8,649 nucleotides of DNA, from assembly GCA_015661465.1 (NCBI GenBank), contig DQVZ01000115.1:1-8649 (forward strand), read 5' to 3'. Shown here one piece after another: positions 4,488 through 5,080 of the stretch. The position numbers were made by a program, and so were the translations under genes. Numbering within the stretch: position 1 is the stretch's first letter; each line of letters opens with the position of its first letter. This stretch comes from Aquifex aeolicus. GTDB lineage: Bacteria; Aquificota; Aquificia; Aquificales; Aquificaceae. Under the pieces are notes generated by a model. That model saw only the letters and a program-made list of their open reading frames with translations, ran no database searches and had not been told where the DNA came from.

Positions 4488-4500
4488 CCGTTTTCTTCTT
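4472..4500. terminator. Small hairpin between convergent dxs and HARP genes, possible two-way terminator
   Basis: AAAA-a-GGTT (4472-4480), a five-base loop CGTTT (4481-4485) and AACC-g-TTTT (4486-4494) can fold into an eight-pair stem with one A/G mismatch. On the + strand a T-rich tail TTTTCTTCTT (4491-4500) follows; on the - strand the descending arm also ends in Ts. The stem overlaps the last codons and stop of dxs. The hairpin is GC-poor, so its strength, especially at high temperature, is doubtful. It is the only terminator-like structure at this junction. Confidence 0.35.
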
Positions 4501-5080
4501 AAAAACTTTTATGTTTTATAAGGCTTTCGAGAATATTTCTAAAATTTTTCGGGTCTATTAATTTTATTCCTATCTTATCTGCCCAAGTTCTCAATCCCTC
4601 GTCGGCAGAAACGAGAATACCGTCAAGTTCGTAGGCAAGCAATAAAACATCTACATCCTCTTTACTGTCAATAATCCCTTGTCTTAAAGCTTCTCTGTAT
4701 TTTTCCCTTAGTTTTGATATGAGTTTTCCAACATCTTCACAGGAACTGGCTTCCCTTGTATGCTCTTCTGCTATCCTCAATCCTTTATTAACTCTATACC
4801 TTACTTCATTTATAAATTCGTAGAGAAAGTCTGCCGGTATAAAGAGTTTAAATCTTCTGGGAGAGCGTATTCTTACAACCATTTCAAACTCAGCCCATAG
4901 CTCCCCGATATCTACAATTTTTCTCATCTCGTCGTATATAGAAGTGGGCATATAAAATTCGGCGTTTGAATTCAGAGCGAGATGTATAAAATTCTCTACA
5001 GCACCTTTTTGATCTTCTTCAAAAGTCCTATATATTTCGGGATTTGTAAATACGCTCGTATCTAAAATAAATACATCCAT
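4499..5080 (-). CDS. RNA-free ribonuclease P, HARP type (Aq_880 family, UPF0278, PIN-like nuclease)
   Basis: Recognised as HARP, the single-protein RNase P first described in Aquifex aeolicus (Aq_880). It removes 5' leaders from precursor tRNAs without an RNA subunit. The family was earlier labelled UPF0278 or 'RNA ligase partner protein'. Length (193 residues, about 22-23 kDa) fits. It opens with a PIN-like strand and first acidic residue, FILDTSVFTN (Asp7). The second acidic cluster is IIDSKEDVDVLLLAYEL (Asp138, Asp142, Asp144), and VSADEGLRTWA carries Asp160. Residues about 84-134 form a helical insertion rich in Arg and Lys (K119, K123, R125, K127, R129, R133), which fits the spike helices known for oligomer formation and tRNA contact. 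Known family structures are large homo-oligomers (dodecamers). The start is ATG at 5078-5080 and Asp7 sits at the expected distance; no Shine-Dalgarno sequence is seen. It is a single-gene unit, convergent with dxs and divergent from minC. A VapC-type toxin is the main alternative but fits poorly: no antitoxin gene adjoins it and the protein is longer than usual. Confidence 0.93.
   Translation of the reverse strand: MDVFILDTSVFTNPEIYRTFEEDQKGAVENFIHLALNSNAEFYMPTSIYDEMRKIVDIGELWAEFEMVVRIRSPRRFKLFIPADFLYEFINEVRYRVNKGLRIAEEHTREASSCEDVGKLISKLREKYREALRQGIIDSKEDVDVLLLAYELDGILVSADEGLRTWADKIGIKLIDPKNFRNILESLIKHKSF

Follow-up and report, generated by a model that had tools for sequence, protein, structure and literature searches.

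Most bacteria trim the front ends of their tRNAs with an RNA-based RNase P. In an 8,649-nucleotide stretch of Aquifex aeolicus DNA (the whole stretch that was analysed, hereafter the window), a first-pass annotation had proposed that one open reading frame (ORF) encodes a single-protein enzyme instead, the homolog of Aquifex RNase P (HARP), which raises the questions of whether the protein belongs to that family and whether it is the only RNase P of the organism. The order of genes in the window is as follows:

1-2541, reverse gyrase gene, cut
2601-4487, dxs
4499..5080, minus strand, HARP (homolog of Aquifex RNase P) coding sequence, 193 amino acids, 22.6 kDa, stop codon included; from the ORF list and the PDB and profile matches
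5081..5109, no strand, gap of 29 bp between the divergent start codons of HARP and minC
5110-5703, minC
5685-6476, minD
6463-6714, minE
6711-7799, minus strand, prfA
7803-8009, minus strand, rpmE
8065-8649, minus strand, rho, cut

The frames as listed for minC and minD overlap by 19 bases (5685-5703) and those for minD and minE by 14 bases (6463-6476), and the TTG given as the start of minE is merely the first possible start.

The ORF at 4499-5080 was confirmed to be a real gene. It encodes the 193-residue protein that had been described, starting from an ATG on the minus strand, and a 193-codon open frame would arise by chance at the composition of the window with a probability of ~1e-6 at a given place. 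A single match was identified in each of six Aquifex relatives (6/6), with 82-98% identity to the window protein. Estimates of dN/dS for the two closest loci (~0.03 for L002, from dN 0.009 and dS 0.29, and ~0.06 for L003, from dN 0.018 and dS 0.28; dS was not estimable for L004 and L005) point to strong purifying selection on the gene. With respect to its surroundings, dxs is convergent with the HARP gene and minCDE are divergent from it, and no tRNA genes and no Rfam matches at the gathering score were found in the window, in agreement with the earlier remark that the gene has no operon link to any RNA gene. In all seven Aquifex genomes minC lies upstream of, and divergent from, the HARP gene. 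The gap between the two genes contains an AT palindrome, TATTTTAAAATA (5088-5099), that was present by eye at five of the seven Aquifex loci. It is conceivable that this palindrome acts as a -10 element in both directions, for HARP and minC; a promoter scan around the HARP gene was at chance level (4 sites versus 2.8 expected), and none of its sites fell at the palindrome.

In a sequence search of the PDB, the seven best matches to the window protein were all entries titled 'RNA-free ribonuclease P' (E 1e-47 to 6e-114), headed by 7f3e, the structure of Aq_880 (E 6e-114, residues 1-191). Profile matches above the curated cut-offs were obtained along the full length of the protein, and these included PF08745 (PIN_5; 229 bits, cut-off 27, residues 4-189), NF003344 (315 bits, cut-off 241) and TIGR03875 (234 bits, cut-off 95). 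The last of these carries the name 'RNA ligase partner', which is what the first-pass annotation had anticipated of older annotation, and its equation of the protein with Aq_880 was likewise borne out. Together these matches support the assignment of the window protein as an Aquifex HARP and ortholog of Aq_880. The two proteins (PDB 7f3e and 8kd9 for Aq_880) are 87% identical over 191 residues, with 25 of the 191 positions differing, none of them catalytic; they share the genus, all of the catalytic residues, four of the five basic residues that have been tested and the neighbours dxs and minC, and differ slightly in length (192 residues in Aq_880 versus 193). Over 191 residues the 7f3e chain shows no difference from the HARP of G001, a genome of the same genus in which, as in the window genome, neither rnpA nor rnpB was found. 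A more distant orthologue is Hth1307, the HARP of Hydrogenobacter thermophilus (PDB 8ssf), which is 70% identical to the window protein and differs from it by a two-residue insert in the helical domain. The genome G028 was taken to be H. thermophilus because its HARP matches 8ssf without a difference over 191 residues.

The following features within the HARP gene were located by alignment or from published work on Aq_880:

5060..5062, minus strand, Asp7 codon, first catalytic aspartate (then Thr8 and Ser9 of the active site); alignment, role from PMC8405995
4679..4726, minus strand, basic patch of the protruding (spike) helix, residues 119-134, predicted to hold the tRNA elbow; role from PMC8266387
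4667..4669, minus strand, Asp138 codon, catalytic; alignment, role from PMC8405995
4655..4657, minus strand, Asp142 codon, catalytic; alignment, role from PMC8405995
4601..4603, minus strand, Asp160 codon, catalytic; alignment, role from PMC8405995
4508..4552, minus strand, C-terminal part, residues 177-191, the removal of which abolishes higher oligomers in Aq_880 (PMC8266387)

All eight published active-site residues of HARP (D7, T8, S9, D138, S139, E141, D142 and D160; PMC8405995) are present in the window protein, and these eight, together with R125 and K127, were invariant across 20 aligned Aquificales HARPs that were picked from 42 loci with HARP. The last essential aspartate is printed as D161 in PMC8266387; the window protein and Aq_880 both carry Glu at that position. 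The acidic residues that had been noted from the translation (Asp7, Asp138, Asp142, Asp144 and Asp160) are all in place. The description of a basic insertion at about residues 84-134 was accurate only in part, since acidic residues nearly balance basic ones over the whole stretch (11 K/R and 10 D/E) and the basic character lies in the patch at 119-134 (6 K/R and 2 D/E). Five basic residues were mutated in Aq_880 (K119, R123, R125, K127 and R129; PMC8266387), of which K119, R125, K127 and R129 are kept in the window protein and R123 is replaced by K123. The protein thus appears to possess the spike-helix insertion with a basic patch that marks the family, and the C-terminal residues needed for Aq_880 oligomers are mostly kept.

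For Aq_880, Mg2+-dependent removal of the 5' leader from pre-tRNA was shown (PMC8405995), and activity requires a homo-oligomer, a dodecamer (PMC8266387, PMC8405995). By analogy, the subunits of the window HARP would dimerise via their protruding helices and the dimers would stack into a dodecamer, in which one dimer would grip the tRNA elbow with its basic patch and the adjacent dimer would hydrolyse the bond before nucleotide +1 in its PIN active site (Asp7, Asp138, Asp142 and Asp160 with Mg2+). This reading of the substrate by two dimers was published for Aq_880 (PMC8405995, PMC8266387) and for related HARPs (PMC9051087), and it is carried over here, with the oligomer, by orthology. The enzyme is predicted to be active and essential. 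The predicted reaction is the same as that of the ribonucleoprotein (RNP) RNase P, composed of rnpB RNA and RnpA, but in the latter the catalyst is RNA, and it was not found in the window genome. It is important to note that some bacterial HARPs, from other phyla, failed to cut pre-tRNA (PMC12153264). In all probability the window HARP is the organism's only RNase P, predicted from its sequence to cut pre-tRNA 5' leaders, and the evidence for that exclusivity comes from the following surveys.

The window genome comprises 1.32 Mb in 307 contigs and is 82.02% complete. As the first-pass annotation had predicted, no match to RF00010 (rnpB) was identified in it (control 11/14, 8 above cut-off), and none to PF00825 (rnpA) at E up to 10 (control 10/14). 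In a draft that is 82% complete, these negative results are weak on their own, and their force comes from the congeners: all six (G001-G006, of which G001 is 99% complete) have HARP and showed neither rnpB nor rnpA. Across 136 genomes of the phylum, PF08745 was identified in 69, RF00010 in 62 (control 10/14) and PF00825 in 63, and when the three gene tables were compared by hand, HARP and RNP RNase P (rnpB or rnpA) were never found together (0/136). The division follows families. HARP was present in 69 of the 71 genomes of families f1 and f3 (64 and 7 genomes, respectively; 63/64 in f1), none of which had rnpB or rnpA, whereas all 65 genomes of families f2, f4 and f5 had rnpB or rnpA and none had HARP. 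Among those 65 genomes, 60 had both RNP genes, three had rnpA only (G085, G088 and G128) and two had rnpB only (G090 and G095). With neither rnpB nor rnpA found here, and with the two kinds of RNase P mutually exclusive across the 136 genomes, HARP is very likely the sole RNase P of the organism. The protein had also been flagged as an unusual system; its identity as HARP was right, but the term was overstated, as Aquificaceae are described in the literature as relying on HARP alone for RNase P (PMC10941002, PMC4227106). Published work already covers the type of enzyme, the genus and the HARP-only condition; the enzyme is a known one, found here in its founding genus.

Among other explanations, the one that survives best, though we consider it improbable, is that HARP mainly serves an RNA process other than housekeeping tRNA maturation, perhaps alongside the Rnl3 RNA ligase, as has been proposed where RNP RNase P coexists. 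Supporting this is not only the family name 'RNA ligase partner' but also the distribution of the ligase (TIGR01209), which was identified in 56 of the 136 genomes, all in f1, and whose gene abuts or overlaps that of HARP in 38 of the 55 genomes with both; a link between HARP and ligase was already published (PMC12153264), and part of a ligase gene is present in the window genome (C284:3-458). However, that match is on another contig, and at the window the HARP gene has dxs and minC as its neighbours. In the remaining 17 of the 55 genomes, which include all seven Aquifex, the two genes are apart, mostly on different contigs of drafts. They share a contig but lie far apart in G001 (165 kb), G051 and G052, and are on different contigs in the six draft Aquifex genomes. 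In addition, 14 of the 69 HARP-bearing genomes had no ligase match, including five of genus g4 and six of f3, and no other RNase P was found in the window genome or the six congeners. The Hth1307 gene abuts an RNA ligase gene but the Aquifex HARP gene does not, and this separation in Aquifex may be a new observation.

It is more improbable still that housekeeping is carried out by an RNA-based RNase P that is too divergent for the covariance model or hidden in an assembly gap. The incompleteness of the draft would leave room for one, and RNase P RNA was searched on genomes with RF00010. The phylum run with this model used strict filters, and we therefore reran 35 genomes laxly, including the whole of f3 (seven genomes) and 25 genomes of f1; 32 of the 35 were without rnpB and rnpA in the phylum searches. 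Matches at E up to 10 were obtained in 22 of the 35 genomes (best E 0.013), but none was above the cut-off, and the highest score was 14.2 bits versus a gathering score of 100. Moreover, rnpA, an independent marker, is absent from the same genomes, and in A. aeolicus and relatives a single polypeptide of 23 kDa was reported to provide RNase P activity (PMC10941002). We accordingly rejected a divergent or hidden RNA and presume that the gaps of the window assembly conceal none. As a separate observation, G088 (f2, 99% complete) had RnpA and no RNase P RNA match, the laxer rerun included. Lastly, the idea that the ORF encodes a PIN toxin of the VapC type, one half of a toxin-antitoxin pair, was rejected as scarcely credible: VapC toxins have the PIN fold and an acidic active site, and a VapC-like group of the PIN superfamily is, in published work, common to them and HARP, but VapC6, the eighth and only non-HARP match in the PDB search, reached E 0.12 over residues 139-175 only (37 residues), so that the closer resemblance to VapC named in the first-pass annotation as its possible undoing did not materialise, whereas the seven HARP sequences match along the protein, no antitoxin-like gene adjoins the ORF, and matches in every congener and almost every f1 genome are unlike the distribution of a patchily held toxin.

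Two further points against HARP as the sole RNase P have to be weighed. The first is that G055 (f1, 87% complete) and G106 (f3, 95% complete), both from HARP-bearing families, showed none of the three genes; an RNA ligase was present in G055. Searching these genomes with an f3 HARP query gave no match at E up to 10 (a search without a positive control). HARP is preceded by a co-oriented argG at four of the six other f3 loci (L057, L059, L061 and L062), with two further ORFs between the two genes in L062. In G106, only a 35-residue match to argG was found (L155:1-123), at a contig start and running into other sequence, and because the argG match is broken in this way the absence of HARP is equally likely to reflect an incomplete or faulty assembly or a genuine loss.

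The second point concerns the tRNA substrates. The search of the window genome gave 26 tRNA matches, 25 of them above the cut-off, among which were tandem genes for Thr-Tyr-Gly on C73 (gaps of 21 and 39 nt), Ala-Lys on C10 (gap of 13 nt) and Glu-Val on C123 (gap of 34 nt). These tandem genes speak in favour of a need for a 5' processing enzyme: their spacing suggests that they are co-transcribed and, if so, the 5' ends of the inner tRNAs have to be released from a longer RNA, whereas the tRNAs of Nanoarchaeum are leaderless (PMC10941002). Encoded 3'-CCA was counted on tRNA genes in retrieved sequence stretches and was present in 19 of the 25 in the window genome (one below-cut-off match being dropped), and CCA-bearing pre-tRNA was cut 10-fold slower by the H. 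thermophilus HARP (PMC10652100). Among the matches listed, CCA was encoded in 23/33 tRNA genes of the A. aeolicus-like G001 (43 matches in total), 7/33 (21%) of H. thermophilus G028 (43 in total), 3/32 of G029 (45 in total), 11/28 of the f3 genome G107 (39 in total) and 16/30 of the rnpB-bearing G082 (41 in total). The value for G028 agrees with the 'nearly one-fifth' published for H. thermophilus (PMC12153264). The content of encoded CCA does not follow the type of RNase P, because it is 39% in f3 and 9% in g4, both of them HARP-only, and 53% in the rnpB-bearing G082. Unless 3' processing takes place in a different order, the Aquifex HARP thus faces mostly CCA-bearing substrates, a type on which the enzyme of its relative performs poorly, and the high encoded-CCA share of Aquifex versus H. 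thermophilus may be new. We offer as a tentative and rather doubtful proposal that the Aquifex HARPs form a substrate class of their own for CCA-bearing pre-tRNAs, with a gene parted from the ligase, and that f3 is also protein-only; if this were true, genome CCA content and HARP would have co-evolved.

Family f3 (G105-G111; loci L057-L062) had HARP in six of seven genomes, rnpB or rnpA in none of the seven and no RNA ligase match, and looks like a second HARP-only Aquificota family, which may be a new observation. The papers cited place HARP in Aquificaceae or the order Aquificales (PMC10941002, PMC12153264), and no f3-like family was found named in the titles or abstract openings of open-licence papers. 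In a tree of 86 HARPs, the 45 Aquificota-titled rows were all split off by a starred branch (100/89), with 33 rows of Pseudomonadota, Verrucomicrobiota, Spirochaetota and Tectimicrobiota on the other side; no archaeal HARPs were among the 80 loci kept of 330. With few branches resolved on the Aquificota side and no fixed root, the tree would accommodate either one origin or two for HARP in f1 and f3. Two HARPs from contigs with other titles also group with Aquificota, L097 (RFFP01000017.1, titled Acidobacteria) and L112 (QOAS01000183.1, titled Gammaproteobacteria), and the latter agrees with the G105 contig in length and HARP position, so that its title is likely wrong. At L008 and L018 the HARP match was reported with one in-frame stop each (TGA and TAG, respectively), which may lie at the end of the gene, although both genomes are single contigs and 99-100% complete.

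The organism is one of the few bacteria in which the ancient ribozyme has been replaced by a 23-kDa protein, confirmed here from raw sequence. The split of the 136 genomes, with either HARP or RNP RNase P, never both, and neither in two, provides a clean data set on the loss of the ribozyme, and the difference in encoded CCA among HARP-only genera makes it possible to ask directly at the bench whether the specificity of HARP tracks the set of tRNA genes.
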